A stretch of 64,000 nt of DNA from the NCBI GenBank assembly GCA_948567375.1, contig OX419758.1, positions 12,653,001 to 12,717,000 on the forward strand, in the 5' to 3' direction. How positions within the stretch are numbered: the first letter of the stretch is position 1; each line of letters starts with the position of its first letter. Below the pieces are notes generated by a model. The model worked only from the letters and a program-made list of their open reading frames with translations. It made no database searches and was not told the origin of the DNA. The translations under genes were made by a program, and so were the position numbers. Of this stretch, positions 2,505 to 44,617 are shown in pieces. The stretch is from Lunularia cruciata (lineage: Eukaryota > Streptophyta > Marchantiopsida > Lunulariales > Lunulariaceae).

Positions 2505-4790
2505 AGCCTGTATCTCAGGTCCCAGTGAGGGAGGAGATTGACTCTGAGTTGGAGTTCGACACAGGAGCTGATTCAGTTGAGAGTGCACTTGGTGTGTCCG
2601 CACCGTTGTTGTGGGACATGGATGAGATTTATGGGGCCTCCAAAGGCCCTAGGCGTTACTCTGGTACAGTGGGTACCATTGAGTTGGATGACTTCATCCA
2701 GGAGTTCGATAGTTGGTGTGATCTGCAGCAGATGCGGAACCCGACTTTGTTCACACCCTTCATGGCATGGAAGGGGTTGTTTCAGCACTTGGAGGGTCCA
2801 CCGATGGACGACTACCATGAGTTCACGAGAGCTCATTTGGAGGAGATTGAGTTATGGAGACAGTATTGGTCTCCTCACTATATCTCCATCACTTCAGGCT
2901 CGGTGTCCAGGAGTAGATCGGCTGTACCTACGAGTTCTAGCTCGAGTAGTGTGGGTGGAGCTAGTGGAGGTGCACTAGCTGGAGATAGTGCTACTACGAG
3001 TGGAGGTACCGCTGCATGAGGTGGTGTGGTACTGGGGTTTAACCCCATGGTGGAGTTCTTCCTATGTTTGAGGCAGAACTACCAAGGAGTGCGGACTGAC
3101 AAGCTGAGGAGCTTGCAGGAGTTCCAGCGGAAGGCTAGAGAGAGCCTACGCGAGGCATACACTCGCATGAGGCGGCTGATCAGTTTCACTCAGGGAGTTA
3201 CTGAGGCCCAGGCAGTCCAGTTTTGGTATGGGATACTGGACAGGGAGTTGCGACGTAGAGTTCGTGATGCTACGTTGTTGCAGGCTACTTTGCCTACTTT
3301 GGCAGTAGTCTTTGGTTTGGCTGAGCGTATTGAGCTCAACATGGTGGAGGAGAGAGTGGTGACAGCTGGATTTGGTAGAGAGACCTCATCCACGGTTGTG
3401 ACTTCTTCTAGAGTGCAGCAGAGTGCACCATGCCCAGTTGGTTTTCGAGGACAAGGTGTACAGCCCAGATCCTATGGAGCGAGTGGAGGGCCTAGTGGAG
3501 TTAGACCCTTACCCTCATTTTCGGGTCAGTAGCAGCCAGTGAGTGGTGGTGTTGCTTGTTGGACTTGTGGTGGACCTCACCATAGGAGAGAGTGTACTCA
3601 GGGCAGCGGACCTGATACCTCTGGTGCATCATAGCCAGCACAGAGGCAGTGTGAGCACTGCCACAGATTTGGTCACACTAGTGACCGGTGTTTTGACCTA
3701 CACCCGGAGTTACGGAGTGGTAGGGCTGCTATGGCAGGTAGTAGAGGAGCTCCAGTTCATGGAGGACGAGGTGGTAGAGGTGGTGGTAGAGGATCTACAC
3801 CTAGTAGGGGTGCAGTACCTGCCCTTACTTCTGACACAGCTATGGCTACTCGGATTGAGCAATTGGAGCGGAGATTGGCTAGTATGGCTATTGCTTAGAG
3901 GAGATCAGATTCGGGTGCTGAGGCTTCCACCTCATATGCTGGTGATAGAGATGCTTTGGACTTCATGTGCGGAGCAGCACAGGTGGATGCATCTGCAATA
4001 GTGACTAGGAGTGCAGTACGTGCTCTAGAGCCTAGAGGAGCATCAGTGGAGTTGGACCCACAGAGAGGAGAGGTTGGGAGACAGGTCAGACTTCCCCAAT
4101 CTTTCACGCTATCTGAGGCATTGCAGACGACATCCATGGTTCCTAGACGTCCCAGTGCAGGTGTGGTAGGTGGTGATGGAGTACCTGATGGAGTACCTGC
4201 TAGTCAGCCACCTGCTACTACACAGACTGAGTCTAGCATGATGTTGGGGGCGGCTCAGCTGATTATGCGGCATCCTTTATTTTCAGCCAGTGACATGTTT
4301 ACATTGGGAGTGGACCCAGCCCCAGTGTTCCGGTTGGCTGCCACGTTGTGTGAGAGTAGGGATGGTGCAGTTCCTACTACTAGAGCAGAGGTGGTTGGTA
4401 GTGGAGCTGACTTGGTTGAGGAGCATGGGATCCGTTCAGCGACCAGTGGTTTATGGCAAGCAGCAGCGGCTAGACTGGAGGAGTTGCCAGCTAGACCGGC
4501 CTTTGAGAGAGCGCGGTTTACACCTGGTGTTTTCCTATTGGATAACCAGAGGGGGATCTTTCGTTTGGTAGGACCTTCAGGGAAGGTCTATACACCACAG
4601 AGAGTCTTGTTAGACTCTGGTGCGCAGCCCCTTATGTTGGGGAAGGCTGCAATTGTTGGTCTGGAGTTACGGAAGACCGATGTGGAGAGGTGTCCATTTC
4701 ATCCAGACATCTCTTGGTGGTGGTTCGACATAGTACATCACACGTGGAGAGCTTGTTGTCCAGGTTCAGCCTGGTCATCCAACTGATAGC
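2505..4790 (+). pseudogene. Copy A gag and aspartic protease (decayed)
   Basis: The gag frame starts in mid-protein; copy B keeps the upstream start. A capsid-like helical region (about 2690-3400) is followed by two zinc knuckles: a variant CX2CX3HX4C at 3557-3595 (CWTCGGPHHRREC) and a canonical CX2CX4HX4C at 3650-3691 (CEHCHRFGHTSDRC). A Gly/Arg-rich stretch follows near 3740-3820. The protease is marked by LLDSGAQ near 4608-4628, the catalytic DSG of retroviral-type aspartic proteases. Stops are at 3017 (TGA), 3530, 3632 and 3896 (TAG). A 2-base loss relative to copy B near 4700 shifts the frame just after the protease active site. Copies B and C confirm that the stops interrupt coding sequence. 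Confidence 0.85.
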
Positions 4791-4793
4791 TCG

Positions 4794-5309
4794 GTGGTGA
4801 GAGCTCAGGCTATCGCGACGATAGCTGAGTCCTATGATGTGCTAGTTGGGGGAGCAGTGTTATATCCTATGGGTTTCAGTATTGACTATTGGGAAGAGAC
4901 AGCCTCTTATAGACCTGGTTGGCAATCTGGTGAGGGACGGGTATGTCGTCTACCAGTACGTTTCAGTAGTGGCAGTCTTGGCTCACTACAGTCCGGGACC
5001 ATGGCAGCATCAGTTTTGGCTTTCAGCGGTGCAGTCACTTGGCCTGGTGACTTGTTGGAGGGGAACGCCCATGCAGAGGATACTCCAGTACCAGAGGAGA
5101 TCACTCGGCTATGGAGTACGAGTGGGATTGTTCCATCCACCTTGGATGTTCCATTGTGGAGTTCAGAGGAGGCATTGTAGCAGCATGCAGATCAGTTGGT
5201 GCAGCAGGCTTGGAGTGGAGCCTTTGTACCATCAGGGGATGAGTGTGAGGATGAGCCTCCAGAGGCGATTGCTTTGACACCTCTGGATACCACACTCATT
5301 GCTTGGCAA
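4794..5309 (+). pseudogene. Copy A protease C-terminal part and linker to methyltransferase
   Basis: After the frame change the coding continues with a conserved stretch (IATIAESYDVLVGG, VLYPMGFSIDYW). In copy B this is joined without a break to the protease, so it is probably the protease C-terminal half. A less conserved linker rich in Gln and acidic residues leads into the methyltransferase. A TAG at 5178-5180 stands where copy B has CAG. No separate domain is recognised in the linker. Confidence 0.6.
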
Positions 5310-6300
5310 TATCCAGTAGAGGGGATATGTCTATTGGAGTTGTTTGGTGGGATCAGCACCGGACTAGCTGCGGTGTTACAGGGGGGTATCCGAGTACAGA
5401 GGTACTTGTATGTAGAGAGAGATGAGACTGCTAGGCGAGTCTGTCTACATCATGTGGCACACTTGGCCTATCGGTATCCGGAGTTATTACCGATATCAGC
5501 AGTCAGAGGTTACTAAAAGGCCTTACCAGGAGACATTTCCTTACTAGGGGCGCATGACCTAGAGAGACATGGGCCTGTTCACTTGGTGATTTCTGGATGG
5601 CCATGTCAGGGACATACACGTGCGGGCCGCGGTTTGGGTCTTTAGGATCCTCGTTCTGGTGTGTTTTGGGAGATGTTACGGATACTACGACATCTCCAGG
5701 TTCATCAGTCTGTTTCTCCAGCTTACCTTTTGGAGAACGTTCCATTGATGGGTGATTCTCGCACTAGAGTGGTGGCGAGTACACATTAGGTCCATTCTTG
5801 GATGGGACCTGCTGTATTGTTAGATGCAGCCAGAGTGGGATCACGGGCACATTGTCTTTGTCTTTGGTGGACGAACCTTTTACCCAGAGAGGTTCTACAG
5901 CGTAGTTATGATGGGATTCAGCGACTAGACCACATTCTTGTTGATGATATCTTGGATGCTGGACGTCAGTCTCAGACAGTGGTAGTGGCTGATAGGTCAC
6001 CTATAGCAGTGGTGAACCTAGTTGGACAGCCTAGAGCTGCATTTCCCACACTCATGAGTTTCCCAGGCTCTCATGCTTTTTGAGAGGGAGGAACTGGACT
6101 TGTTTGGGACTCACAGTTACAGCAATTGGTGGAGCCCAATGCTGATGAGAGAGAGCGGGCGATGGGTTTTCACACCGGTATTACCGCTGTTCCAGCAGTG
6201 TCAGAGGCATCTAGGCGTCAGGCGTTAGGTCAGGCTATGGACCTGAACTATTTGACCTGGATTGTGAGCCTTGGTTTGGCAGAGCAGCGTAGGATGCGCT
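5310..6300 (+). pseudogene. Retrotransposon-borne C5-cytosine DNA methyltransferase (copy A, decayed)
   Basis: The frame shows the conserved motifs of C5-cytosine methyltransferases in canonical, non-permuted order. Motif I is LELFGGISTGL (5334-5366), the SAM-binding loop, followed by an acidic YVERD. Motif IV is GWPCQG with the catalytic Cys codon at 5604-5606. RSGVFWEMLRIL follows. Motif VI is ENV at 5733-5741. Motif VIII is LDAARVGSRAH...LWWTN (about 5820-5876). FPTLMSFPGSHAF lies near 6040. A motif X-like RRQALGQAMDLN falls near 6207-6245. Motif I and the VFWEMLRIL stretch look most like DNMT3-type enzymes, while PCQ is DNMT1-like. The enzyme would transfer methyl groups from SAM to cytosine. 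Four stops (5514, 5643, 5787, 6081) interrupt it. Two motif VIII residues expected to be basic are now Cys (TGT), a change CGT would reach by CpG decay. Confidence 0.85.
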
Positions 6301-6749
6301 TGATAGGCATCACCACTCGGACACTTGTGAGCCCTGTGCCGATCGAGACGATTCAGGCACATGCTGGGGGCGATGGACCAAGTGGACATGGTATTCTTGG
6401 GACACATCCAGTAGCTACTAGGGAGAGTGGTCTACTTGGAGTCCATCCAGGTGAGCGTGGGCTACTTGGATTACACCCTTGGTCCACATGGGATGCAGCC
6501 AGAGGACGTGTGGAGCTTGCAGCCAGAGTGGAGGGAGTTTTTCACACAGAGGTTGGGACCTCTAGTGGTTGGGAGCATGACACTATTGCTCCCAAGGGCC
6601 TAGTGTAGCAGCCAGTTAGTACGTCTTCCACTCCTACTACAGTTACAGAGGATACTTGGGAGCCAGATCTTGGACCCAAGCTTATTGGAGAGGAAAGACG
6701 GAGGGTTTGGAGGTTCTCGAGGAGTCACACGAGTTGTTTTGCATTCAGT
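6301..6749 (+). pseudogene. Copy A linker between methyltransferase and RT
   Basis: The frame is the same as the methyltransferase and the RT. It contains repeated short GLLG(V/L)HP-type blocks near 6420-6480 (GLLGVHPGE, GLLGLHPWS). A TAG at 6606-6608 is shared with copy B. No catalytic motif is recognised. The linker may form a spacer or a protease cleavage region between the methyltransferase and RT. Confidence 0.55.
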
Positions 6750-8441
6750 ATGAAGGATTTGGGTGCTCTGAAGGGACCTGGTATACGGATTGAGCTGACT
6801 AGCAACACACCTGTTTTCCGACGTCCTTATCGATATAGTGATATGGAGAGGACATTGATTCAGAGCCGGAGTAGTGACCTTTTTGAGGCTGGTTTGGTGG
6901 AGATTTCACATGGAGAGTATGCATCAGCAACAGTGATGCCAGCCAAGAAGGATATGCATGGCAACTATACAGATAGGCGGATGTGTGGAGATTACCGTCC
7001 TATCAACCGATCAACTAGGGCTGATTGGTATGCCATGCCTACACCGGAGGAGATTTTTGATGCGATTGGGCATGCAAAGGTCTTCAGTACTTTGGATCTT
7101 CGAGCGGGATATCATCAGTTGCCGATCAGGGAGGAGGATAAGTCCAAGACAGCATTTTGGGCTATTGATCCTCACGGCAAGGATGTGTTATATCAGTGGA
7201 GGTTCTTACCATTTGGGTTAAAGAACGCTCCAGCTGAGTTCCAGAGGGTCATGGATAGGATCCTAGCTGGATTGGATTTTGCTCGGTGCTATATTGATGA
7301 CATTTTGGTTTATAGCACTACTGTGGAGGAGCATGAGAGACAGTTGTTGGAGGTGTTTGAGAGGTTGAGATCTCATGGACTCAAATTACATCCTGGGAAG
7401 TGTAGGTTCTTCCATGAGCAGGTTGAGTATTTGGGTCACACTATCTACCCTGGAGGACTTGGTGTTCAGCAGACCAAGGTGGAGGCTATTGCACGTATTC
7501 CTCGGCCTACGGATGTGAGCAGAGTGCGAGCATTCCTTGGGTTGGCGAACTTCTATTGCCGCTATGTTAGAGGATTTAGTGCCATTGCCAAGGCCTTGAC
7601 GAAGCTGACCAAGCTTACACAGGAGTGGTGTTGGGGAGATGAGCATGAGAGAGCTTTTGTAGAGCTCAAGGAGAGGTTGACATCTGCTCCTATTTTGAGG
7701 AGACCGATCAGGGGACGACCATTTCAAGTTCACACTGATTGGAGTATGTTGGGGCTTGGAGCGGTGCTCACCCAACATGATGATGAGGAGAAGGAGTTTG
7801 TGGTGGCCTATGCTAGTCGCTCCAACAATTCAGCGGAGGCGAAGTATAGTTCATATGAGGGAGAGTGCTTGGCAGCAGTTTGGGCAGTAGCACATTTCCG
7901 ATGTTACCTATTTGGTAACCCCTTCACTCTCATCACTGATCATCAGCCGCTGAAGTGGTTGATGGAGTCCGACAAGCTTTCAGGGAAGCTTGCACGATGG
8001 GCTCTGATTTTACAAGAGTATGATTTCACGGTTGTTCACAGACCTGGAGTGGTGAACCGTGATGCAGATGGGTTGAGTAGAAACCCATGTCCCAGCCAGC
8101 ATGATCAGACCGGAGCACGTTGGCATGGTGAGACAGATGAGGAGATGGTGCCAGGTTGGCATGCATCGGCCTTTCTGTGTATATTTGCAGAGACTTTGGT
8201 GGTATCTCTCTCAGCGAATACAGGAGGAGTTATTGAGGTCACAGATCCAGAGAGTGAAGATATTGGTACAGTTCAGCAAGACATTCATGATGATGTCTTA
8301 GTGATGGACTATCTTCGCACTGGTGTTGTGGGTGGCACAGTTGGGGCCAAGGAGAGAGACCGTGTTCTTCAGCGAGCCAGACGGTTCAGATTGGAGGGTA
8401 GACACCTTTTGCGTGTATGGAGGATGGTAGAGTGCGAGTAG
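6750..8441 (+). CDS. Copy A reverse transcriptase and RNase H (open segment)
   Basis: This 563-codon segment has no stops. The gypsy RT fingers and palm are clear: MPAKKD, CGDYRPIN, FSTLDLRAGYHQL, FLPFGLKNAPAEFQRVMD, and the catalytic YIDD at 7290-7301. RNase H follows (about 7720-8090) with TDWS, YEGECLA, ITDHQPL and a final RDADGLSR, which supply the acidic catalytic residues. It would copy element RNA into DNA in cytoplasmic particles. It is part of a polyprotein, so the first Met is not a true start. A 1-base loss near 8420 relative to copy B moves the integrase into another frame. Intact RT/RNase H beside a decayed methyltransferase suggests moderate age. Confidence 0.92.
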   Translation: MKDLGALKGPGIRIELTSNTPVFRRPYRYSDMERTLIQSRSSDLFEAGLVEISHGEYASATVMPAKKDMHGNYTDRRMCGDYRPINRSTRADWYAMPTPEEIFDAIGHAKVFSTLDLRAGYHQLPIREEDKSKTAFWAIDPHGKDVLYQWRFLPFGLKNAPAEFQRVMDRILAGLDFARCYIDDILVYSTTVEEHERQLLEVFERLRSHGLKLHPGKCRFFHEQVEYLGHTIYPGGLGVQQTKVEAIARIPRPTDVSRVRAFLGLANFYCRYVRGFSAIAKALTKLTKLTQEWCWGDEHERAFVELKERLTSAPILRRPIRGRPFQVHTDWSMLGLGAVLTQHDDEEKEFVVAYASRSNNSAEAKYSSYEGECLAAVWAVAHFRCYLFGNPFTLITDHQPLKWLMESDKLSGKLARWALILQEYDFTVVHRPGVVNRDADGLSRNPCPSQHDQTGARWHGETDEEMVPGWHASAFLCIFAETLVVSLSANTGGVIEVTDPESEDIGTVQQDIHDDVLVMDYLRTGVVGGTVGAKERDRVLQRARRFRLEGRHLLRVWRMVECE

Positions 8442-9721
8442 TACCACTTCCATCACAGAGACCACAGTTGGTCCGTCATGCTCATGAGGAGCTAGGACAT
8501 TTTGGAGTAAAGCGTACATATAGCTTACTCCAGAGTCATTATTGGTGGCGCGGTATGGAGACCGAGGTACAGCAATTTGTTGCTAGATGTGTGGTTTGTG
8601 ACCGAGTTAGAGCATCATTCAATGCTCCTACGCCATAGTTACACCCATTACCTATCATGGGATTGGGTTACCGTTGGACTTTGGACTTTGCCGGACCTTT
8701 ACCGCTGACTGTGAGACATCATCGGTATGTTTTGGTGATGGTGGAGCACTTCTCCAAGTGGATTGAGTTGGTAGCACTTCCTGACAAGTCTAGTGAAGGG
8801 ACAGCTTACTTGTTCCTGGATCGAGTTCTTAGTCATTTTGGTGCACCAGCTGAGGTTTTGACTGATCAGGGTACAGAGTTCTTGGGAGAGTTTCAGGTCT
8901 TGTGTGACAAGGCTTTGATTGATCATCGTACTACATCCCGAGATCACCCTGAGGCAGATGGCTTAGCAGAGAGAGTGGTTCAGACGGTGAAGAGAGGATT
9001 GCGAAAGTATGGTTTGCAGAGAGGCCACTTGGGAGATTGGGATCTCCAGTTACCTTGGTTGGCCATGGACTATCGGTTCAGCCGGCAAGCCTCCTTAGCA
9101 TCCTTCTCTCCATACTTTCTACTCTATGGACGAGATCCAGATTTACCTGCAGCCATTCGTCGAGATGCTACTGTAGTTTTGGACTTGGATGACCCCGATG
9201 TATGGATGAGCGCATGTTCTCAACGGGCAGAGATCTTTCGGAGAGTGATGCCGATGGCCTTTGAGAACTTGGCGATTGCTCAGCATAGAGATACTTTACG
9301 CTATGCTACCATTCAAGGAGGAGGTTATAGACCCTCGATCCATCGATTTCATCCCGGTGACTATGTATATCTACAGCAGACAGCACCGACGACACTTGAT
9401 GTCTCTACAGGCCGCACTATCTTGAGAGTGCGCGAGGTTTTGCCATCTGGAGTCCTTGTGTTAGAAGGACGTGATGGTGTTGTTTGGAAGGATCATGTGC
9501 GCAATTGTGCGCCATGCCACCTCCCAAACATTGATGGTACTATGGACCCAAGCTTGGCACTTGTACGTGCAGGCTTGAGGTGTATGTTATGTGGCTCTTC
9601 TGGTGGGGCTGCTACTATGTTAGTGTGTGATAGCTGTTCGAGAGGATGGCATATGGCATGTATGACTCCTCCCCTCACGGTGGTTCCTCAGGGACAGTGG
9701 TTATGTCCTAGATGTACTTGA
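8417..9721 (+). pseudogene. Copy A integrase with C-terminal PHD finger
   Basis: The HHCC zinc domain is at about 8475-8610 (HAHEELGHFG ... CVVCDRV). After a TAG at 8636-8638, also present in copy B, the frame stays open to 9721. The DDE core shows LDFAGP near 8680, LTDQGTEF near 8855 and the Glu of ADGLAERVVQ near 8965. A basic, SH3-like C-terminal region follows (HPGDYVYLQ, LRVREVLPSG). The end is a complete PHD finger of C4-H-C3 type at 9581-9718: CMLC, CDSC, GWHMAC and WLCPRC, including the usual PPLT(V)(V)P stretch. PHD fingers typically bind histone H3 tails. Here the finger occupies the place where chromoviruses carry a chromodomain, which suggests a targeting role. Confidence 0.9.
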
Positions 9722-9890
9722 CCTATAGCTAGTTCATTCTTTATATGGTATAGATTGCAGACAGGCGACTAACGATGGGGCTCCATAGCACCCGGCCTCC
9801 TGATCTTTGCCCATTAGAGGGTATACCATATACTTAGAGTAGATGGCTATCTGGAGTTAGAGGGACCTAACCGCTAGCTAGGGGGGCGAT
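9722..9890 (+). other. Copy A 3' UTR and polypurine tract
   Basis: Non-coding sequence lies between the polyprotein stop and the LTR region. It ends in a purine run (AGGGGGGCGA, 9879-9888) directly before TGTGGCAC. This fits a polypurine tract that primes plus-strand DNA synthesis. Copy B has the corresponding tract in mutated form. Confidence 0.6.
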
Positions 9891-9997
9891 TGTGGCACTT
9901 TAGAGTCTATGTATGACTTATGTGTGAGTTGTGCTTTTATAGTGTATGATGTTGACAGCGATGTATGTTGTGTAGCGATGTATATATGCACGACAGT
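9891..9997 (+). repeat. Direct repeat R1 bracketing the copy A 3' LTR
   Basis: About 105 bases starting TGTGGCACTTTAGAG and ending GCACGAC recur almost unchanged at 10446-10552. The pair encloses the 448-bp LTR core at the 3' end. The same arrangement occurs in copy B. Confidence 0.85.
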
Positions 9998-10445
9998 TGT
10001 CACGCCATTTGTAGTTCCGCATCTAGATGCTCAGACACTAGAGTTCCAATGATGGTAGTTAGAGTTATTCTAGCAGTTTCTCAGGGACTACTTTCCGACG
10101 GTTAGATTTCGTGTTCGGGGTACTGACTTCACGGTGGGGCCCACCGTCACTTTGCACCATTTGCACCGTCGAGTGTGCCATCAGCGGGACCGTTAGGGTT
10201 TCAGGGCTAGCTCAAGTCCAGGGGGTATAGTTTCAAAGTGAGCTCTAGAGAGCTCACTTCTCTGATGTTGAGCCTTCGAGTTCCTGGCTATGGTGGACAG
10301 AGGCCGGCGAGCGTCACCTGGATTCTCTATGCTTGAGTGGGTGTGGCTTGACTGTAATTAGTGCCCAATTGTTGGCAGTTTATAGAGTGACAGATCAAGT
10401 ACTGATCTGAGTTGAGTTGAGTTGGGAGTGTTAAGCAATCTGATT
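9998..10445 (+). repeat. Copy A 3' LTR core (X segment)
   Basis: This segment begins TGTCACGCCATTTGTAG and is homologous to the 5' LTRs of copies B (35890-36177), C (43484-43933) and D (11381-11792), and to the 3' LTR core of B (26147-26591). In the 5' LTRs it starts right at the element edge and ends TTACA, without the flanking R repeats seen here. Confidence 0.8.
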
Positions 10446-10552
10446 ATTGTGGCACTTTAGAGTCTATGTATGACTTATGTGTGAGTTGTGCTTTTATAGT
10501 GTATGATGTTGACAGCGATGTATGTTGTGTAGCGATGTATATACGCACGACA
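10446..10552 (+). repeat. Direct repeat R2 at the copy A 3' terminus
   Basis: This is the second copy of the ~105-bp repeat at 9891, ending CGACA at 10552. Immediately after it the sequence switches to the internal 5' UTR of copy D in reverse orientation. Copy B ends at the same CGACA, which supports this as the real 3' terminus of the family. Confidence 0.75.
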
Positions 10553-26052: not shown

Positions 26053-26056
26053 AGTT

Positions 26057-26146
26057 TGTCGTGTGCATATATATCGTTGTCAACATCATACACTATAGAA
26101 GCACAACTTACACATAAGTCATACATAGACTCTAAAGTGCCATAAT
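26057..26146 (-). repeat. Direct repeat R2 at the copy B 3' terminus
   Basis: Homologous to R1 (26592-26700), with about 17 bases missing internally. On the minus strand it runs from TTATGGCACTTTAGAG to CACACGACA. It is followed by AGTT, which recurs beside the 5' LTR. Confidence 0.75.
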
Positions 26147-26591
26147 AATCAGATTGTTTACAACTCTTGAATCCACTCAACTCATATCAGTACTTGTCCT
26201 TCTCTAAACTGCCAACAATTGGGCATTGATTACAATCAAAGCCACACCCACTCTAGCTAAGAGAATCCAGGTGATGCTCGCCGGCCTCTATCCACCATAG
26301 CTAGGAACTCGAATGCTCAACATCAAAGAAGTGAGCTCTCTAGAGCTACACTTCAAAAGTCTACCCCCTGGACTCGAGCAAGTCTAAAACCCTAACGGTC
26401 CCGCTGACGGCACACTTGACGGTGGAAACGGTGCAAAGTGACGGTGGGCCTCACCATGAAGTCAGTATCCTGAACACAAAATCTGACCATTGGAAAGTAG
26501 TCTCTGAGAAACTACTGAAATAACTCTAACTACTATCACTAGAGCTCGAATTTCCAAGCAATCTAGATGTTACACTACAAATGGCATGACA
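26147..26591 (-). repeat. Copy B 3' LTR core (X segment)
   Basis: On the minus strand it begins TGTCATGCCATTTGTAG at 26591 and ends AATCTGATTA. It is visibly diverged from the 5' LTR of the same element (I estimate roughly 85% over the shared part), so the insertion is old. Confidence 0.8.
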
Positions 26592-26700
26592 GTTGTCATG
26601 CGTATATACATCACTACACAACATACATCAATGTCAACATCATACACTATAGAAACACAACTCACACATAAGTCATACATAGACTCTAAAGTGCCATAAT
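26592..26700 (-). repeat. Direct repeat R1 of copy B
   Basis: Lies between the 3' UTR and the LTR core on the minus strand. It matches R1 of copy A in sequence and position. Confidence 0.8.
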
Positions 26701-26866
26701 CGCTCCATAGCTGGCGGTTAGGTCCCTCTAACTCTAGATAGCCATCTACTCCAAGTATATGGTATACCCTATGATGGGCAAAGATCAGGAGGCCAAGTGC
26801 TATGGAGCCCCATCGTTAGTCACATGTCTACAATCTATACCATATAAAGAATGAACTAGCTATAGG

Positions 26867-28170
26867 TCAAGTACATCTAGGACATAACCATTGTCCTTGA
26901 GGAACCACCGTGAGGAGAGGAGTCATACATGCCATATGCCATCCTCTCGAACAACTATCACACACTAACATAATAGTAGCTCCACCAGAAGAGCCACATA
27001 ACATACATCTCAAGCCTGCACGTACAAGTGCCAAGCTTGGATCCACAATACCATCAATGTTTGGGAGGTGGTATGGCACACAATTGTGCACATGATCCTT
27101 CCAACCAACACAATCACGTCCTTCTAACACAAGGACTTCATATGGCAAAACCTCATGCACTCTCAAGATAGTGCGGCCTATCAAAACATCAAGTGTTGTT
27201 GGTGTTTTCTACTATAGATTTACATAGTCTCCTAGATGAAATCAACGGACCAAGGGTCTATAACCTCCTCCTCAAATGGTAGCATAGCGTAAAGTATCTC
27301 TATGTTGAGCAATTGCCAAGTTCTCAAAGGCCATCGGCATCACTCTCCAAAAGATCTCTACCCGTTGAGAACATGCACTCATCCATACATCGGGGTCATC
27401 CAAGTCCAAAACTATAGTAGCATCTCGGCAAATGGCTGCAGGTAAATCTGGATCTCATCCATAGAGTAAAAAGTACGTAGAGAAGGATGTTAAGGAGGCT
27501 TGCCGGCTGAACCGATAGCCCATGGCCAACCAAGGTAACTGGAGATCCCAATCTCCCAACCGGCCTCTCTGCAAACCATACTTTTGCAATCCTCTCTTCA
27601 TTGTCTAAACCACTCTCTCTACTAAGCCATCTGCCTCAGGGTGATCTCAAGATGTAGTACAATGATCAATCAAAGCCTTGTCACACAAGACTTGAAACTC
27701 CCCCAAGAACTCTATACCCTGATCAGTCAAAACCTCAGTTGGTGCACCAAAATGACTAAGAACTCGATCCAAGAACAAGTAAGTTATCCTTTCACTAGAC
27801 TTGTCAGGAAGTGCCACCAACTCAATCCATTTGGAGAAGTGCTCCACCATCACCAAAACATATTGATGATGTCTCACAATCAGCGGTAAAGGTCCAGCAA
27901 AGTCCAAACTCCAACAGTAACCCAATCCTATGATAGGTAATGGGTGTAACTATGGCGTAGGAGTATTGAATGATGCTCTAACTTGGTCATAAACCACACA
28001 TCTGCCAACAAACTATTGTACCTTGGTTTGCATACCGCACCACCAAGAATGACTCTAGAGTGAGCTATATGTATGCTTGACTCCAAAATGTCCTAGCTCC
28101 TCATGAGCATGACGGACCAACTATGGTCTTTGAGATAAAAGGGGTACTACTTGCACTATACCATCCTCCC
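26867..28170 (-). pseudogene. Copy B integrase with C-terminal PHD finger
   Basis: The PHD finger is complete (about 27007-26870): CMLC, CDSC, GWHMAC and WLCPRC are all kept. The DDE region is readable near 27925-27650 (LDFAGPLP, LTDQGIEFLGE). The HHCC zinc region upstream is damaged: the cysteine part is interrupted by stops. A TAG on the minus strand near 27955 stands at the same position as the TAG at 8636 in copy A. Retention of all eight PHD metal ligands in two separate copies shows the finger belongs to the family and is not a chance fusion. Confidence 0.85.
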
Positions 28171-29827
28171 ATACACACAAAAGGTCTTTGCTCTCCAATC
28201 TGAACAGTCTGGCTTGTTGAAGAACACGGTCTCTCTCCTTGGCCCAGTTGTGCCACCAACAATACCAGTGTGAAGTTAGTCCATCACTAAGACATCATCA
28301 TGAATGTCTTGTTGAACTATACCAATATCTTCACTCTCTAGACCTAAAACCTCAATAACTCCTCCTGTATGCGCTGAGAGAGATACCACCAAAGCCGCAA
28401 AAAATATACATAAAAAGGTAGATGCATGCCAACCTGGCACCATCTCCTCATTTGTCTCACCATGCCAACGTGCTCCAGTCTGATCCTGTTTGTTGGGACA
28501 TGAGTTTCTACTCAACCCATCTGCATCACGGTTCACCAGTCTAGGTCTATGAACAACCATGAAATTATACTCTTGTAAAATCAGAGCCCATTGTGCAAGC
28601 TTCCCTAAAAGCTTGGCGGACTTCATCAACCACTTCAGTGGTTAATGATCAATGATGAGAGTGAAGGGGTTACCAAATAGGTAACATTATAAATGTGCTA
28701 TTGCCCAAATTGCTACCAAGCACTCTCCCTCATATGAACTATACTTTGCCTCCGCTGAATTGTTGGAGTGACTAGCATAGGCCACCCCTTCTCCTCATCA
28801 TCATGTTGGATGAGCACCGCTCCAAGCCCCAACATACTCCAATCAGTATGAACCTAAAATGGTCATCCTCTGATTGGTCTCCTTAAAATAGGAGCAGATG
28901 TCAACCTCTCCTTGAGCTCTACAAAAGCTCTCTCCTGCTCATCTCTCCAACACCACTCTTTTGTAAGCTTAGTCAGCTTCTTCAAGGCCTTGGCAATAGC
29001 ACTAAATCCTCTAACATAGCAATAATAGAAGTTTGCCAACCCAAGCAATGCTCGCACTCTACTCATATCCGTAGGCCAAGGAATACATGCAATAGCCTTC
29101 ACCTTGGTCTACTGAACACCAAGTCCTCTAGGATAGATAGTGTGACCCAAATACTCAACTTGCTTGTGGAAGAACCTACACTTCCCAAGAATTTAAGTCC
29201 ATGAGATCTCAACCTCTCAAACACCTCCAACAACTATCTCTCATGCTCCTCCATAGTAGTGTTATAGACCAAAATGTCATCAATATAGCACCAAGAAAAA
29301 TCCAATCTAGCTAGAATCCTATCCATGACCCTTTGGAACTAAGTAGGAGCGTTCTTTAACCCAAATGGTAAGAACCTCCACTGATGTAACACATCCTTAC
29401 TGTGAGGATCAATAGCCCCAAATGTTTTCTTGGACTTATCTTCCTCCCTGATCGGCAATTGATGATATCCCACTCAAAGATCCAAAGTACTAAAGACCTT
29501 TGTATGCCCAATCGCATCAAAAATCTCCTCCGGTGTAGGCATGGCATACCAATCAGCCCTGGTCTATCGGTTGATAGGACGGTAATCTCCACACATCCGC
29601 CTATCTATGTAGTTGCCATGCATATCCTTCTTGGTTAGCATCAATATTGCTAATGCATACTCTCCATGTGAAATCTCTACCAAACCAACCTCAAAAAGGT
29701 CACTACTCCCACTCTGAATCAATGTCCTCTCCATATCATTATATTGATAAGGACACCGGAAAACTAATGTATCGCTAGTCAGCTCAATTCATATACCATG
29801 TCCCTTCAGAGCACCCAAATCCTTCAT
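28171..29827 (-). pseudogene. Copy B reverse transcriptase and RNase H
   Basis: Homologous to 6750-8441. The catalytic YIDD is retained at about 29287-29276. Other blocks are readable: FLPFGLKNAP as a decayed match near 29370, the RNase H linker at 29102-28863, and the C-terminal RNase H at 28629-28500 ending in DADGLSR. Stops and frame changes are scattered through it, mostly CAG to TAG and TGG to TAG types, so the segment cannot be functional. Confidence 0.85.
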
Positions 29828-30290
29828 ATTGAAAGCAAAACAACTAGTGTGGCTCCTCAAGAACCTCTATACCCTCCGTCTTTCCTCTCCAATAAGCTTG
29901 GGTCCAAGATTTGGCTCCCAAGTATCCTTTGTAACTATAGTAGGAGTGGAAGATGTCCTGACTAGCTGCTACACTGGGCCCTTGGGAGCAATAGTGTCAT
30001 GCTCCCGACCACTAGAGGTCCCAACCTTTGTGTGAAAAACTCCCTCCACTCTGGTTGCAAGCTCCACACATCCTCTAGCTGCATCCCAAGTGGACCAAGA
30101 AAGTAATCCAAGTAGCTCATGCTCACCTAGATGGACTCCAAGTAGACTTCTCTCCCTAGTAGCTATTTGGTTGTGTCCCAAGAATACAATTTCCACTCGG
30201 TCTATCACTCCCAACATGTGCTTGAATCATCTTGATAGGCACAAGGCTCACAAGTGTCCGAGTGGTGATGCCTATCAAGCGCATCCTAAG
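29828..30290 (-). pseudogene. Copy B linker between methyltransferase and RT
   Basis: Matches 6301-6749 of copy A, including the GVHLGEHELLGL-type repeat (about 30160-30100). It carries a TAG on the minus strand near 29970 at the position of the TAG at 6606 in copy A. Confidence 0.6.
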
Positions 30291-30797
30291 CTACTCTGCC
30301 AAGCCAAGGCTCACAATCTAGGTCAAACAGTTCAGGTCCATAGCCTGACCAAACACCTGACACTTGGATGCCTCTAACACTGCTGGAATAGCGGTAATAC
30401 CGGTGCAAAAACCTATTGCCCGCTCTCTCATCAGTGTTGGGCTCCACCAATTGCTATAATTGTGAGTCTCAAACAAGTCCAGGTCCTCCCTCTCAAAAAG
30501 CATGAGAGCTTAGGAAATTCATGAGTGTGAGAAATACTGCTCTAGGCTATCCAACTAGGTTCACCACTGCCATAGGTGACCTATCAGCCACTACCATTGT
30601 TTGAGATTGACGCCCAACATCCAAGATATCATCAACAAGGATTTTGTCAAGTTGTTGAATCCCATCATAAGCATGTTGTAGAACCTCTCTGGGTAAGAGG
30701 TTCGTCTACCAAAGACAAAGATGATGAGCTCATGATCCCACTCTGGCTCGATCTAACAGTATAGTAGGTCCCATCCAAGAATGGACCTGATGTGTAC
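30291..30797 (-). pseudogene. Copy B methyltransferase, C-terminal half
   Basis: Carries the part after the solo-LTR insertion. The motif VIII region (ARVGS..., then LW*TN) is near 30755-30695. Then follow VVVADRSP, a decayed FPT region, and the motif X-like end near 30380-30300. The residue that is Cys (TGT) in copy A is His (CAT) here, so an ancestral CGT Arg decayed on opposite strands. A TGA on the minus strand near 30496 is shared with copy A (6081). Confidence 0.75.
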
Positions 30798-31489
30798 TGT
30801 GAGCCGGCTTGTCTCTCACTCAGGGTGAACCTCTGATGGCTATTATGGTAGCGCACCATGGACTAAGAAGGCAAGGAACCCCAACTCCATCATACTCCTC
30901 CAAGGCTAACACTCCAAGACTCAAGACATTGCTCACTAGAGAACTCAATGAGAGAGAGATAGTTGCAAATGAAAGGATGTTGAGTACCTCCTCACCCCTT
31001 GTTTATATAGTGATGAAATAGTTACGTACCAAAGTTGCTAAATACCGTAGTAACTCAAGTTACTAGACTAAAAGTCAAATAAAGTCAAAAAGCAAAAAGG
31101 AATATCCATTCACATGGGCATATTCCCCTAAGCATGTGATCTTATCTTGACCCAACCACTAAGTCAAGGATTCCTTCACATGGGCTATCCTTGGACTAAA
31201 GAAGAATCCAAAACAAAAAGGCTTGCGGGCCCAAGAGTTCTCAACTCTTTCCTCAAAGCCAAACACCTAGGAATAATACCTAGTCAACACACTAAAATCC
31301 AAAATAGTGGTGCTCATCTTTTCTACTTCCTCTAAAGTAAGGTCCCATCTATCTTAGCTATGACTAACTTTAGCTAACCATGACTAATATAGAACCATCC
31401 TTTATCTCTATATAAATAATATCTCTTAAGTACTTGTAATACCAAGCTAAATATCACAATACCACACACATGCACAAATGGGTGTTACA
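30798..31489 (-). mobile_element. Solo LTR of family E inside the copy B methyltransferase
   Basis: On the minus strand it starts TGTAACACCCATTTGTG at 31489 and ends GGCTCACA at 30798, giving TG...CA termini and 692 bp. It matches the LTRs at 54387-55079 and 46589/50463-51095. The flanks are GTAC on the left and ATAC on the right, a 4-base target duplication with one mismatch. Removing it would restore alignment with copy A at position 5782. Only the LTR remains, as after LTR-LTR recombination. Confidence 0.88.
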
Positions 31490-31960
31490 ATACTTGCCAC
31501 CACTTTGGTGCAAGAATCACCCATAAAAGGAATATTCTCTAGAAGGTAAGCTAGTGAAACGGATTGATGAACATGGAGATGTCATAGTATATGTAACATC
31601 TCCCAAAACACACCAGACCAAGGATCTTGAAGACCCAAACCTATACCAACATGTGTATGTCCTTGACATGGCCATCCAAAAATCACCAAGTAAATAGGCC
31701 CATGTCTCTCTAGATCATGCGCCCCTAGTTAGGAAATGTCTACTGGTAGGGCCTTCTAGTAACCTCCAACTACTAACATTGGTAATAACTCCGGATATTG
31801 ATAAGCCAAGTGTGCCACATGATGTAGAGAGACTCACCTAGCAGTCTAATCTCTTTCTACATACAAGTACCTTTGTACTCGTATACCTGCCTATAATACC
31901 ACAGCTAGTCCGGTGCTAATCCCACCAAACAACTCCAATATACATATCTCCTCTATTGGT
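31490..31960 (-). pseudogene. Copy B methyltransferase, N-terminal half
   Basis: Motif I (LELFGGISTGLA) is preserved near 31940-31900, as is GIRVQRYLYVERD. Motif IV GWPCQGH is intact near 31675-31650, and WSGVFWEML follows. Motif VI has become ENI. A TAG stands at the position of the TAA at 5514 in copy A. Where copy A has stops at 5643 and 5787, copy B keeps Gln codons. Confidence 0.8.
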
Positions 31961-33190
31961 ACTGCCAAGCAATGAGTGTGGTATCCAAAGGTGTCAAAGT
32001 AAGCAACTCTAGAGGCTCATCCTCACACTTATCTCTTGATGGTATGAAGGCTCCACTCCAAGCATGTTGCACCAATTGATCTACATGTTGCTGCAATGCC
32101 TCCTCTAAACTCCACAATAGAACATCCAAGATGGATAGAAAAATCCCACTTGTACTCCAAATCCAAGTGATCTCCTCTGGTACTAGAGTATCCACTGCAT
32201 GGGCATTCCCCTCCAACAAGTCACCAGGCCAAGTAACTGCACAAGTGAAAGCTAAAATTGATGTTGCCATGGTCGCAGACTATAGTGAGCCAAGATTGCC
32301 ACTACTAAAGCATATTGGTAGGTGACATACTCATCCCTCAATAGACTGCCAACCTGGTCTATAGGAGGCTATCTCTTCCCAATAGTCAATACTAAAACCC
32401 GTGGGGTATAACACTACTCCTCCAACTAGCACATCATATGACTCAGCTATTGTTGCAATAGCATGAGCTCTCACCACCAAGCTATTAGTTGGATGACCAG
32501 GCTGAACTTGGACAACAAGCTCCCCACATGTGATATATTGTGTCAAACCACCACCTAGAGATGTTTGGATCTGAAATAGATACCTCTCCACATTGCTCTT
32601 TCGTAACTCTAGACCAACAACTACAACCTTCCCCAACATAAAGAGCTACACACTAGAGTCTAACAAGACTCTCTATGGTGTATAGACCTTCCTTGAAGGT
32701 CCCACCAAACGGAAATTCCCCCTTTGGTTATCCAATAAGACAACACAAGGTATGAACTGTGCTCTCTCAAAGGCCGGTCTAGCTGGCAACTCCTCCAATC
32801 TAGCCATTGTTGCCTGCCATAAACCATTGGTCGCTGAATGGATCCCATGCTCCTCAACCAAGTCAGCTCTACTACCAACCACCTCTACTCTAGTAGTAGG
32901 AACCACATCATCTCTACTCTCAGAAAGCGTGGCAGCCAACCAGAACATTGGGGTTGGCTCAACTCCCAATATAAATATGTCATTGGTTGAAAACAAAGGG
33001 CACCGCATAATCAGCTGAGCTGTCCCCAACATTGTGTTAGACTCAATCTATATAGTAGCAAGTGATTGACAAGTAGGTAGTTCATCATGCACTCCATCAC
33101 CACCTACCACACCTGCATTGGGACATCTAGGAACCATGGATGTCATCTGCAATGCCTTAGATAGTGTGAAAGACTGGGGAAGTCTGACCT
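31961..33190 (-). pseudogene. Copy B protease and linker
   Basis: The protease active-site region reads LLDSS near 32680-32660 where copy A has LLDSG, and a stop follows directly, so the protease is dead. The downstream block VVRAHAIATIAESYDVLVGG (32639-32331) is in one frame with LGKVVVVGLELRK. This shows that copy A lost two bases near 4700. Confidence 0.75.
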
Positions 33191-34847
33191 ATCTCCCAAC
33201 CTCTCCTCTCTGTGGGTCCAACTCCACGGATGCTCCTCTAGGCTCTGAAGCACGTACAGCACTCCTAATCACTACTATAGATGCATCCACCTGTGTTGCT
33301 CCGCACATGAAGTCCAAAGCATCTCTATCACCAACATATGAGGTGGAAGCCTCAACACCTAAATCTGATCTCCTTTGAGCAATGGCCATATTAGCTAATC
33401 TCTGCTCCAACTGCTCAATCCAAGTAGCCATAGTTGTATCAGAAGTAAGTGCATGTACTGCACCCCTACTAGGTGTAGATCCTCTACCACCACCTTTACC
33501 ACCTTGTCCTCCATGAACCAAAGCTCCTCTACTACCTGCCGTAGCAACCCTACCACTCCGTAACTCCAAGTGTAGGTCAAAACATCAATCATTAGTGTGA
33601 CCAAATCTGTGGCAATGCTCACACTGTCTTTGTGTTGGTTGTGGTACACCCGAGGTATCAGGTCCATTGCCCTGAGTACACTCTCTTCAATGGTGAGGTC
33701 CACCACAAGTCCAACAAGCAACACCACCACTCATTGGCTACAATTGACCCAAAAATGAAGGTAAGAGTCTAACTCCACTAGGCCTTTCACTCGCTCCATA
33801 GGATCTAGGTTGTCCACCCTGTCCTAAAAAAGCAACTAGGTGTGGTGCACTCTGCTGCACTCTAGAAGAAGTCATAGCCGTGGATGAGGTCTCCTTACCA
33901 AATCCAAATGTCACTACTCTCTCCTCCACCATGTTGAGCTCAATATGCTCAGCCAAACTAAAGATCATTGCCAAAGTAGGCAAAGTAGCATGTAACAATG
34001 TAGCATCACAAACTCTACATTGCAACTCCTTGTCCAATATCCCATACCAAAACTGGACTACTTGGGCCTCAATAACTACCTGAGTGAAACTGATCAGCCG
34101 CCTCATGCGAGTGTATGCCTTGCGTAGGCTCTCTCCAGCCTTCCATTGGAACTCTTGCAAGCTCCTCAACTTTTTAGTTCACACTCCTTGGTAGTTCTAC
34201 CTCAAACACTAGAATAAATCCACCATGGGGTTAAACCCCAGTACCACACCGCCTCCTATAGCAGTACCTCCACTTGTGGTAACACTATCTCTAGCTAGTG
34301 CACCTCCACTAGCTCCACCAACACTACTCTAGCTAGAACTTGTAGGTACTGCCAATCTACTCCTAGCCACCAAACCTGAAGTGATAGAGACATAGTTTGG
34401 AGACCAATATTGTCTCCATAATTTGATCTCTTCCAAATGAGCTCTCCTGAACTTATGGTAGTCATCCATTGGCGGACCTTCCAGATGCTGAAACAACTCC
34501 TTCCATGCCATGAAAGGTGTAAAAAAAGTTAGGTTTTGCATCTACTGCAAATCACACCAACCATCAAACTCTTGGATGAAGTCATCCAACTCAATAGTAC
34601 CCACTGTACTAGAGTAACGCCTAGGGCCTTTAGAGACCCCATAAATCTTGTCTATGTTCCACAACAACGGTGCAGACACACCAAGTGCACTCTCAATTGA
34701 ATCAACTCTTGTATCAAATTCCAACTTAGAGTCAATCTCCTCTCTCACTAGGACCTAAGATATAGGCTGATACCAAGTACCGCTCCGACTAAACCCATTT
34801 TGTACTGCAAGGCTATCTCCTCTGGAATCCCCAAAGAAATCCATCAT
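33191..34847 (-). pseudogene. Copy B gag with its original N terminus
   Basis: The start is an ATG at 34847-34845, with a second ATG directly behind it. It begins MMDFFGDSRGDS, and this coding sequence precedes the first residues preserved in copy A. Zinc-knuckle regions lie near 33720-33580; the second still reads CHRFGHT. A Gly/Lys-rich stretch follows (GGQGGKGGGRG). Stops are scattered. The same N terminus (MEFFGDFRGDS) occurs in copy C, which confirms the start. Confidence 0.8.
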
Positions 34848-35889
34848 GACAAAGTAACCGCAACCACAAACTACAACAGCAAACCAGAACCACAAACTGC
34901 AACCGCAAGGACCCCACCAAGTGCCAATACCAACTAAGCACCACCCATTAATGTAACTCTAACCAAGATAACTACACTATGGGAAAGGGCAACCTGTAAC
35001 CAACCATCATAACATGCACTCTCATGATCTGTAGGTCATCACTTCCTGCCTCACCGGAGAGAAACAAAGATAGTCTGACTAATCATCACTCCAGCCTCAC
35101 TATCAAGAGCACACCAGAGCCCCAATGCTCCAAAGTCAGGGCACCTCACACAAACATGGTGCACAAACAGGAAGTAGAGAATGGACAGGGTCCAATCACA
35201 AGAAACTTAAATGAAAACCCTCCATCTCATAAAACAACAAGGACTGACTTTGCCACCATTTGGCATTTGACATAAGAGAAGTTTGTATCTAAGTCCTAAG
35301 CTACCAGGATCACCAAGAATGGGATCAAGCTGCCTCTCCTAGCCAAAGCTACAAGTGTATAGATAATAGTGGCATAGTCACTAAGGCAACAAGTGAGGGT
35401 GGACCAATTGGCTAGGGCACCAATCTAGGAACAAGAGATCTAGGGGTCAAACCCTATTGCACACAATCTAGCAAGAAAGGTGGATTTTGCCAACCAATGA
35501 CCAAGATCTACTCTAAACTAGCTGGCTTGCTGGCCCTTCTAGGCCTTTGTAGCCTCTCATAGCCCATAGCCTTATGTCTCAAAGCCTCTAAATGCCAAAT
35601 GATGTCTTTCTTCTTGCCACTTCAAACCTCCTCCAAAATCTTGCAAAACTCTTCCAAAATCTAGTGAAACTCTTCCAAACTTGCAAAAGTCCTCCAAACT
35701 AGCAAAAGTCCTCCAAATCTAGCCAAAATAAAATATTGGTCATGACTTCACCTCCTAAGCTCAAAATCACAACCACTGCTCAAAATTTGTTCCTTTTGTG
35801 CTCAAAAATTGGCCAGCGCTTCCGCACATCGTCTGCCTTATTGCTAAATCTCCATCAAGCAATGAGCTTCTGCACAACAGGGAAAAATT
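34848..35889 (-). other. Copy B 5' UTR
   Basis: About 1 kb of non-coding sequence lies between LTR and gag, homologous to 43934-44617 in copy C and 10553-11380 in copy D. Part of the LTR and the start of the UTR were lost: the LTR breaks off after GAGTTC at 35890. No convincing primer binding site remains. Confidence 0.65.
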
Positions 35890-36177
35890 GAACTCAAAGG
35901 CTCAACATCAGAGAAGTGAGCTCTTTGGAGCTGCACTTCAAAAGTATACTCCCTAGACTCAAGCTAGGTCTAAAACTCTAACGGTCCCGCTAACAACACA
36001 CTTGACGGTGCAAACAGTGCAAAGTGACGGTGGGCTCCACCGTGAAGTCAATATCCCAAACACAAAATCTAACTGTCAAAAAGTAATCTTTGAGAAATTG
36101 TTGAAATAACTCTGACTAATATCACTGGAACTCCAATGTCCAAGCAATCTAGATATGACACTACAAATGGCATGACA
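35890..36177 (-). repeat. Copy B 5' LTR (3' part deleted)
   Basis: On the minus strand it begins TGTCATGCCATTTGTAG at 36177 and continues for 288 bases before the deletion. It has no R1 repeat before it. The bases beyond the edge (AGTT) match those beyond R2 at the other end of the element. Confidence 0.8.

Positions 36178-38529: not shown

Positions 38530-38531
<2 letters not shown>

Positions 38532-38572
<41 letters not shown>
38532..38572. repeat. (AT)n microsatellite
   Basis: About 41 bases of uninterrupted AT dinucleotides inside AT-rich DNA. Confidence 0.95.
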
Positions 38573-38573
<1 letters not shown>

Positions 38574-43483: not shown

Positions 43484-43933
43484 TGTCATGCCATTTGCAG
43501 CATTGCACCTAGATTGCTTGGACTCCAAAGTAGTAGTGTTGGTAGTTAGAAGTATTTTGGCAGTTACTCATAGACTACTTATTGACGGTGAGATTTTGTG
43601 TTCAAGGTATTGACTACATGGTGAGGCACATTGTCACTTGCACCCTTTGTAATGTTGGGTGTGCCATTAGTGGGACCATTAGGGTTGGAGACCTAGGTTG
43701 AGACCAAGGAGTATACTTTTAAAGTTCAACTCTAAAGGGCTCACTTCTTTGTTGTTGAGCCTTTGAGTTCTTGACTATGGTGGATAGAGGCCGATGAGCA
43801 TCACCTAAAGTCTCTTAGCTAGAGTGGGTGTGGCTTGACTATAATCAGTGCTCAGTTGTTGGCAGATTATTGAGTGAGAGATCAAGTACTAAGTTGATTG
43901 AGTGTGATTTGAGTTGTGAACAAACTAATTACA
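43484..43933 (+). repeat. DNMT-PHD copy C 5' LTR
   Basis: A 450-bp LTR with TG...CA termini (TGTCATGCC at the start, AATTACA at the end). It is homologous to the LTR core of the other copies, without R repeats. CpG is almost absent. Confidence 0.85.
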
Positions 43934-44617
43934 TCAAAGAAGTGAAGTCAAGGGGAAATTGGGTGTAGAAATGAAGATGTTGGTGGTATCTCCAAGCCTT
44001 GCTGACTCTTGGTAGCTTGATCATTGTTCAAATTTTCCTTGATAGTGATCATGTGCATAAGCTTTTTCAAATTGATGCAGATTTGGCAATGAGGCAGACA
44101 ATGTGCGGAAGTGCTATCCAAATTTCCTTAAAAAGAGAGTCAATCTCAAGCAATGGTGTTTGTTTTGAGCTATGGAAGTGAAAATAGGACCAATTTGGTG
44201 CAAATTGAGCTCAAAGGGCAAAATTGAAGGTGGAATTTGGAACCCATTCTCTCAAATTTGTGAGTTGGAGAACCCTTCTATTCTATACTTCCTATTTGTG
44301 CACCATGTTTGTGTGAGGTGCCTTGACTTTAGAGCGTTGGTACTCTAGTGTGCTCTTGATAATGAGGTTGGAGTGATGACCAATTAGACTACTTATGTTT
44401 CCCTCCGGTGAAGCAAGAAGTGATGACCTACAAACCGTGAGAGTGTGTGTTGTAATAGCAAGTTATAGGTTGCCCTTTCCCCTAGTGTAGTTATCATAGT
44501 TAGAGTTACATTAGTGGGTGACATTTGGTTGGTGGTGTTGGGACTTGGTGGTGATTCTTAGTGGGGTACTTATGGTATTTACGGTTGCGCTTTGCAATTT
44601 TTGGTTACTTTGTCACA
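43934..44617 (+). other. Copy C 5' UTR
   Basis: About 684 bases between LTR and gag, homologous to the UTRs of copies B and D (for example the block GAGGCAGACAATGTGCGGAAG near 44091). No convincing tRNA-complementary primer site was found next to the LTR end. Confidence 0.65.

Follow-up and report, generated by a model that had tools for sequence, protein, structure and literature searches.

A high-copy Gypsy-type retrotransposon of Lunularia cruciata encodes a predicted DNMT3-type cytosine methyltransferase ahead of a conserved UAG codon

We analysed a 64,000-nucleotide stretch of the Lunularia cruciata genome (NCBI GenBank assembly GCA_948567375.1, contig OX419758.1, positions 12,653,001 to 12,717,000 of the forward strand; hereafter the window, whose own coordinates are used throughout) in which a retrotransposon carries a C5-cytosine DNA methyltransferase (MT) domain. 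The central copy, copy A, contains in order gag, protease, MT, an in-frame UAG codon, reverse transcriptase (RT), RNase H, integrase, a PHD finger and the terminal repeats B1-A2-B2 (Table 1). This is the Ty3/gypsy order of gag, protease, RT, RNase H and integrase with an MT added, where the gag match is weak and the protease is called by motif: no Pfam family matched the copy A open reading frame (ORF) at 3899-4786, and the protease is identified by the sequence LLDSGA, which we take to be its active-site motif. By its domains the element would be classed as Ty3/gypsy-type, with an RT recognised by Pfam models. We are nearly certain that these parts are correctly identified.

Judged by its motifs, the MT domain is complete. 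Pfam DNA_methylase (PF00145) matched the translation of 5181-6329, with stops written as X, at E 2.8e-7 (30.7 bits, cut-off 22), and a phmmer search of PDB with the single copy A domain returned DNMT3A at E 3.2e-9. An earlier note on this DNA, made from the sequence alone, had placed a DNMT3-like methyltransferase between protease and RT and had named a search with this Pfam profile as a check; the domain is borne out by the significant match, and its DNMT3-like character by a search of PDB with a profile built from 14 open copies of the domain, free of stops and indels. The chains ranked highest by this profile were DNMT3A (E 2.6e-12, 49.9 bits) and DNMT3B (E 1.7e-8, 37.4 bits), with lower scores for HaeIII MT (E 6.6e-5, 25.6 bits), a tRNA C38 methyltransferase (E 3e-4, 23.4 bits), DRM2 (E 0.0023, 20.5 bits), DNMT2 (E 0.0057, 19.2 bits) and HhaI (E 0.012, 18.1 bits); no chain named DNMT1 or CMT appeared at E ≤ 1. 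This ranking disfavours a DNMT1/CMT or bacterial origin of the domain. PF00145 was matched by all 14 open copies at E ≤ 0.1, in displayed alignments that span only profile positions 48-120 of 324.

Motifs I, IV (PCQ), VI (ENV), VIII (RxR), IX and X are all present. The canonical order claimed earlier for motifs I, IV, VI, VIII and an X-like end is confirmed, with IX falling in its expected place; copy A itself has lost both arginines of motif VIII, and its MT contains four in-frame stops. Across the 65 element loci described below, the motif IV cysteine is conserved in every one (45 of the 65 having been selected by a profile match around motifs IV-VI), the E, N and V of motif VI are found in 65, 65 and 64 loci, and the first and second arginines of motif VIII in 57 and 46. 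Neither an ADD nor a PWWP partner domain was found in a Pfam scan of the copy A pieces, and a scan of IMG/VR with the MT domain confirmed no relative. By sequence, the domain is a DNMT3-type C5-cytosine methyltransferase whose activity is predicted. The stops that interrupt copy A would suit chance similarity or an annotation artefact, but the Pfam and PDB E-values, together with open copies of the domain at other genomic loci, rule this out, leaving it a negligible probability.

Within copy A, MT and RT occupy one frame, and a frameshift near 4734-4786 sets the protease motif apart from it. The proposal that MT lies in the frame of both protease and RT thus holds directly for RT, and for the protease by way of another locus, L011, in which one open frame holds the protease motif plus most of MT. 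Copy B, which retains both ends and is flanked by the target duplication AACT (26053-26056 and 36178-36181, read by eye), carries the domain at the matching place, as had been observed; there it runs through 31491-31959 and from 30798 down, split by an insert. In copy C the similarity stops upstream of the position of the protease motif, another repeat family begins near 46.65 kb, and no MT belonging to this copy was found within the window.

Table 1. Element parts and copies in the window
Feature	Position	Strand	Basis and remarks
Copy A, 5'-truncated, decayed	2505..10552	+	87.8% and 90.3% against copy B (self-comparison); repeat ends
gag fragment	3020..3532	+	Pfam Retrotrans_gag E 0.0048, 17.5 bits, under cut-off 24.1; weak
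Protease motif LLDSGA in ORF 3899-4786	4607..4624	+	motif only
DNMT3-like MT domain, copy A	5316..6329	+	Pfam, PDB, motifs
Motif I	5331-5366	+	sequence motif, copy A
Motif IV, SGWPCQGHT, catalytic Cys	5592..5618	+	sequence motif, copy A
Motif VI (ENV)	5727-5741	+	sequence motif, copy A
Motif VIII (RxR in family)	5847-5876	+	sequence motif, copy A
Motif IX	6204-6233	+	sequence motif, copy A
Motif X-like	6234-6278	+	sequence motif, copy A
In-frame UAG + CAGCCA (UAG-CAR-YYA), between MT and RT	6606..6614	+	65 loci, copies A/B
RT and RNase H	6609..8441	+	Pfam RVT_1 8.4e-32, RT_RNaseH 1.4e-36, RT_RNaseH_2 5.2e-33
ORF encoding integrase core plus PHD finger	8639..9721	+	Pfam rve 1.4e-12, residues 11-104
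PHD finger, integrase C-terminus	9581..9715	+	Pfam PHD 2.5e-11
Possible polypurine tract: purine-rich, immediately 5' of B1	9880..9889	+	sequence
Repeat B1, 106 bp	9890..9995	+	repeat comparison
Repeat A2, 449 bp	9998..10446	+	repeat comparison
Repeat B2, 106 bp, element 3' end	10447..10552	+	repeat comparison
Copy B, both ends present	26057..36177	-	self-comparison, repeat ends
Conserved UAG in copy B, followed by CAGCTA	29969..29971	-	sequence
MT of copy B, second part, with start of next linker, 8 stops	30168..30798	-	MT to about 30249
Unrelated insert of ~690 bp splitting copy B MT	30799..31490	-	95.5% identical to window 54389-55077, another repeat family
Copy B MT, first part, with 6 stops	31491..31959	-	alignment
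Copy C, with repeat A and the gag region	43484..46588	+	self-comparison

The family was followed through the 565.8-Mb assembly (74 contigs). A PF00145 search gave 2,161 first-look candidates, of which 123 were scored, most rows falling at profile positions 48-120; a DNA search with the copy A MT gave 5,598, of which 40 were scored, copy A among them, and each of the 40 had 97% identity or more across 1,013 or all of the 1,014 bases. We examined 65 element loci, 45 from the PF00145 list and 20 from the DNA search, excluding five host genes (L001-L004 and L015). The first 30 loci are spread over eight contigs of 60-85 Mb each, about 558 Mb in sum. The whole 1,014-bp MT aligned in all 65, with a mean pairwise identity of 96.4%. 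It was free of stops and indels in 14 loci (7/45 profile-chosen, 7/20 DNA-chosen), so that the intact copies which the earlier note had proposed to look for in the genome do exist as far as the MT is concerned, and a stop or indel interrupts the other 51. The view of MT as a stable part of the family is upheld in copies A and B and at 65/65 loci, all picked by MT similarity, a selection that gives no proof that every family member has the domain. Two of the 123 scored profile rows contain the longest open frame holding an MT match, 1,428 amino acids, which by its length (its extent was not read directly) could contain gag, protease and MT together. A junction pattern had 1,920 matches in the genome at up to two mismatches (954 + 966), 505 of them (256 + 249) at zero mismatches, and its reversed control had none.

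The frame shared by MT and RT is interrupted at 6606 by the UAG codon, which is a conserved family feature and not decay. This stop was not reported in the earlier note, and neither were the DIRS-like repeats with their target duplications, the PHD finger or the CG/CHG decay described below. It reads TAG in all 27 copies looked at first (25 loci plus A and B), and the position holds a stop in 65/65 loci (64 TAG, one TAA); the next commonest in-frame stop in 4734-7240 occurs in 21/64. Among the 100 zero-mismatch matches listed for the above junction pattern, which leaves the codon free (C1 and part of C2), 98 have TAG, two TAA and none a sense codon. The sequence UAG-CAR-YYA is fitted by 61 of the 65 loci as well as by copies A and B, where a random hexamer would fit CARYYA once in 512 at equal base frequencies. 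Tobamoviruses and further plant viruses use this sequence as their type I readthrough signal (PMC3542737, PMC5382211). Tobamovirus-type readthrough likewise has UAG followed by CARYYA, whereas here the signal, known from sequence, lies within a retrotransposon between MT and RT. Because the stop is common to the copies examined and is accompanied by this signal, programmed readthrough is the best reading of it, and we consider it very likely. If the UAG is read through, MT would be produced alongside Gag and protease, whereas readthrough would be needed for RT, integrase and PHD finger; the position of MT before a leaky stop suggests that much more MT than RT is produced.

End pieces from ten copies were compared for repeats. 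A repeat of about 449 bp, A, stands at both ends in eight of the ten pairs at 97.6-99.1% identity (in one of the eight the 5' piece begins within A), and no such pairing was found in pairs L073/L074 and L079/L080. At the 5' end A runs straight into internal sequence; at the 3' end B1, two bases, A2 and B2 follow one another. The arrangement A-coding-B-A-B thus has the split direct repeats of DIRS-like elements, with outer ends TG...CA, and 4-bp target duplications flank six of the six pairs in which both flanks were readable by eye (10 pairs fetched), in addition to copy B. Because an identical full long terminal repeat (LTR) at both ends, as expected of Ty3/gypsy, is not found (5' A only, 3' B1-A2-B2), we use the label Gypsy-type for the domains only, as the authors describing KnitGypsy-Dnmt3 did. 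Neither does the element have the tyrosine recombinase and missing target duplication of the DIRS order: it has a DDE integrase (rve) and 4-bp duplications, and the Pfam scan of copy A pieces, beyond which no further search was made, found no tyrosine recombinase. The 3' end of one copy (L082:284-1701) is a tandem A-B-A-B-A array, as expected from multi-LTR joins, and a piece of the repeat A region lies in inverted orientation next to copy A, at 11049-11792. Divergence between A1 and A2 is 0.9-2.4% in the eight measurable pairs and marks a young burst.

The copies also bear a trace of past modification. Over 4734-7700 in the 65 loci, C>T changes affect 7.05% of CG, 5.24% of CHG and 0.84% of CHH sites. 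The concentration of this decay at CG and CHG sites shows that the copies once carried methylation in both contexts. The in-frame stops at 5514 and 6081 that copies A and B have in common recur in 4/65 and 21/64 loci; being confined to a minority, they fit recurrent C>T decay, and a dead lineage defined by these stops was rejected. Recurrent CG/CHG decay blurs the within-family selection test, which compares shared and singleton changes.

The host has methyltransferase genes of its own, named by eye from their motifs: two of DNMT3 type (L001, L004), two of permuted DRM type (L002, L015) and one CMT-like (L003). Such a combination of DNMT3, DRM and CMT types fits a streptophyte outside the flowering plants. 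With moderate confidence, an assembly of eight large contigs and little besides suggests a dioicous liverwort having eight autosomes and a small sex chromosome; microchromosome-like sex chromosomes are described as typical of the dioicous liverworts examined to date (PMC13182070). For the L001 exon, DNMT3C and DNMT3A rank first in PDB, and motif IV of the host DNMT3 reads PCQ, not PCN. DNMT3A, DNMT3B and the host DNMT3 genes (L001, L004) share motif order, ENV, RxR and RQxLG with the element MT, and DNMT3A, its best PDB match, also has a motif I with TGL; the element MT differs from all of these in sitting within a Gag-protease polyprotein. The element MT is 33% identical to the first exon piece of L001 (28% over 74 amino acids), and an identity of only 28-33% disfavours a recent capture from the host DNMT3. 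Scanning bacterial and archaeal genomes with the host DNMT3 exon confirmed no relative.

The closest PDB relatives of the PHD finger include CHD4, KMT2C/D, DPF3, KDM5B, PHF21A (BHC80) and ATXR5. Several of these PHD fingers recognise an H3 tail whose K4 is unmodified, as do DNMT3 ADD domains. By analogy, the element's own finger probably binds the H3 tail and thereby guides integration. A Gypsy-type DDE integrase is also found in Ginger1 DNA transposons, one listed family of which has a C-terminal PHD in its transposase (PMC2836005); that family shares DDE integrase and PHD with the present element, but Ginger1 elements, being DNA transposons, have no RT.

The rest of the window holds further repeats. 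A second repeat family occurs within 46648-63998 as four copies or fragments (about 46.65-50.46, 58.0-59.6, 59.6-63.4 and 63.4-64.0 kb) that are 77-87% alike and have long open frames; one such ORF, 60389-61789, matched no Pfam family above cut-off. Another retroelement pair lies at 50464-58314, with parts about 86-89% alike and a gag at 56761-58314 (Pfam Retrotrans_gag E 6.6e-8); it is a piece of this pair that is inserted in the copy B MT. Long AC/TA dinucleotide arrays lie at 38500-38890, where the sequence is highly AT-rich (GC 0.21 at 38-40 kb). Scanning the window for Rfam families and for tRNAs gave no match.

Retrotransposons bearing DNMTs are already published, including a Gypsy-Dnmt3 with such repeats (PMC5890265), and DNMT3s in retrotransposons are known from streptophytes and dinoflagellates (PMC12344493). 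The precedent named in the earlier note, de Mendoza and colleagues 2018, is real (PMC5890265). Its KnitGypsy-Dnmt3 from Klebsormidium nitens, in architecture the nearest published relative, is described as having the Gypsy domain set, an intronless DNMT3-type MT in the polyprotein, A-coding-B-A-B repeats and methylated copies (PMC5890265). By this published description the present element shares its Gypsy domains, DNMT3 in the polyprotein, DIRS-like repeats and methylated copies, and differs in host and in abundance, with 1,920 junction matches here, whereas DNMT-retrotransposons are reported to be less numerous in K. nitens than in Symbiodinium (PMC5890265). The consulted parts of PMC5890265 make no mention, for KnitGypsy-Dnmt3, of UAG-CAR-YYA after the MT or of an integrase-PHD fusion. 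SymbioDIRS-Dnmt3 of Symbiodinium likewise combines a DNMT3-type domain with repeats in A-coding-B-A-B order, but SymbioDIRS-Dnmt3 and SymbioLINE-Dnmt are dinoflagellate tyrosine-recombinase or endonuclease elements and not DDE-integrase Gypsy-type (PMC5890265). An AlkB-type RNA demethylase is carried by Ty3/Gypsy elements of orchids; like the present element, these are plant Ty3/Gypsy elements with an extra nucleic-acid-modifying enzyme, but their demethylase lies in an additional ORF and their Gag and Pol in a single one (PMC9289625). A literature search of titles and abstracts, with subscription papers and preprints outside its scope, found no DNMT-bearing retrotransposon in a land plant and no UAG-CARYYA signal or integrase-PHD fusion in a DNMT-bearing element. 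As far as this search shows, the land-plant host, the scale, the UAG-CAR-YYA after the MT and the integrase-PHD fusion are new.

Taken together, we think the observations are probably best explained by a high-copy Gypsy-type element whose Gag-protease-DNMT3 frame ends at a leaky UAG and which methylates its own complementary DNA (cDNA). The first reading frame would comprise Gag, protease and a DNMT3-type MT and terminate at the leaky UAG, and readthrough would append RT, RNase H and integrase, the last bearing a PHD finger at its C-terminus. The MT would be made at a Gag-like level, be packaged into the particle along with Gag, and methylate the element's own cDNA, most likely at CG, no later than integration. 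Each new copy would thus come pre-marked as silent chromatin, so that it is not recognised as foreign unmethylated DNA and damage to the host is limited. The central steps, entry of the MT into the particle with Gag, methylation of the cDNA and integration as marked DNA, are put forward tentatively, with confidence somewhat short of an even chance. A fuller account, rather unlikely to be right throughout, has a particle with many DNMT3 and few RT molecules, in which the cDNA is methylated and circularised before a DDE integrase opens its B-A junction and a PHD-guided insertion delivers a pre-silenced copy. Here reverse transcription would yield an LTR of B-GC-A, and the integrated form would come from a two-LTR circle opened by the DDE integrase within the LTR, at the near-palindromic B-A junction GACA-GC-TGTC, which would account for both the permuted A-coding-B-A-B order and the 4-bp duplications. 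The PHD finger would read the H3 tail (perhaps unmodified H3K4) and so lead to chromatin tolerating the methylated copy, and the element would arrive pre-silenced yet reach about 1,900 copies.

Several points weigh against self-methylation. Host silencing alone would explain the CG/CHG decay, which does not indicate the element's own enzyme. The shared/singleton test was not significant for the MT (ratio 0.61, p 0.12) or for RT to 7700 (ratio 0.56, p 0.11), nor for any other segment within the family, and the structure prediction for the MT (pLDDT 43, pTM 0.38) was too weak for use. The KnitGypsy-Dnmt3 MT produced no methylation in yeast, which its authors call inconclusive, as DNMT3B also failed; SymbioDIRS-Dnmt3 domains gave de novo CG methylation there (PMC5890265). 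The MT might instead be retained to act in trans, altering the host methylome or a silencing step (e.g. by mis-marked chromatin) or methylating RNA: made at Gag level it could work outside particles, marks set by the DNMT3-, DRM- and CMT-like genes of the host could be altered, and host-wide and RNA effects of retrotransposon DNMTs are discussed by de Mendoza et al. 2018 (PMC5890265). Given the heavy CG/CHG decay of the copies, which shows no visible escape from methylation, we judge this unlikely. The missing selection signal and the 51 interrupted MT domains would equally suit a passenger without present function in a successful element, but the motifs I, IV, VI, VIII, IX and X remain recognisable despite only 28-33% identity to the host DNMT3 exon piece, so that long-term constraint on the MT is likely, and 14 of 65 domains are open though copies differ by 3.6% on average; we regard a mere passenger as quite improbable.

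Within the favoured account of a self-methylating element, both the route to RT and the source of the MT have competitors. Instead of being read through, the UAG could be spliced out, or bypassed if translation re-initiates at an in-frame ATG found at 6750 in copy A. Plant Ogre elements have a putative intron between Gag and Pol polyproteins (PMC9289625), and the 141 nt from UAG to ATG show no coding constraint (ratio 1.4, p 1.0, a weak test with eight shared sites). Yet a known plant-virus readthrough signal follows the UAG at nearly all loci and a single frame continues on both sides of it, and this route to RT seems to us a poor prospect. As for the source, the earlier note had left a choice between another lineage of the known elements and an independent capture. 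We favour an extension of Gypsy-Dnmt3 to another lineage because the DIRS-like repeat arrangement is that described for the Klebsormidium element, a likeness drawn indirectly, from the published description. That reliance on description leaves some room for a DNMT3 acquired separately, which we nevertheless find doubtful: the same unusual trio, a DNMT3 together with Gypsy domains and a DIRS-like repeat layout, is in print (PMC5890265), and the low identity to the host gene speaks against recent capture from the host.

DNA methylation is mostly treated as a host weapon against transposons, whereas here a very successful transposon carries a de novo-type methyltransferase, apparently made, to judge from the order of its frame, at the level of a structural protein. 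A land-plant host would extend the known range of Gypsy-Dnmt3 beyond one streptophyte alga, and the split repeats combined with a DDE integrase raise a testable question on how such elements integrate. With its many copies, conserved readthrough signal and open MT domains, the family would be convenient material for studying what an element gains by methylating DNA, be it for protection, for self-restraint or to alter host silencing.
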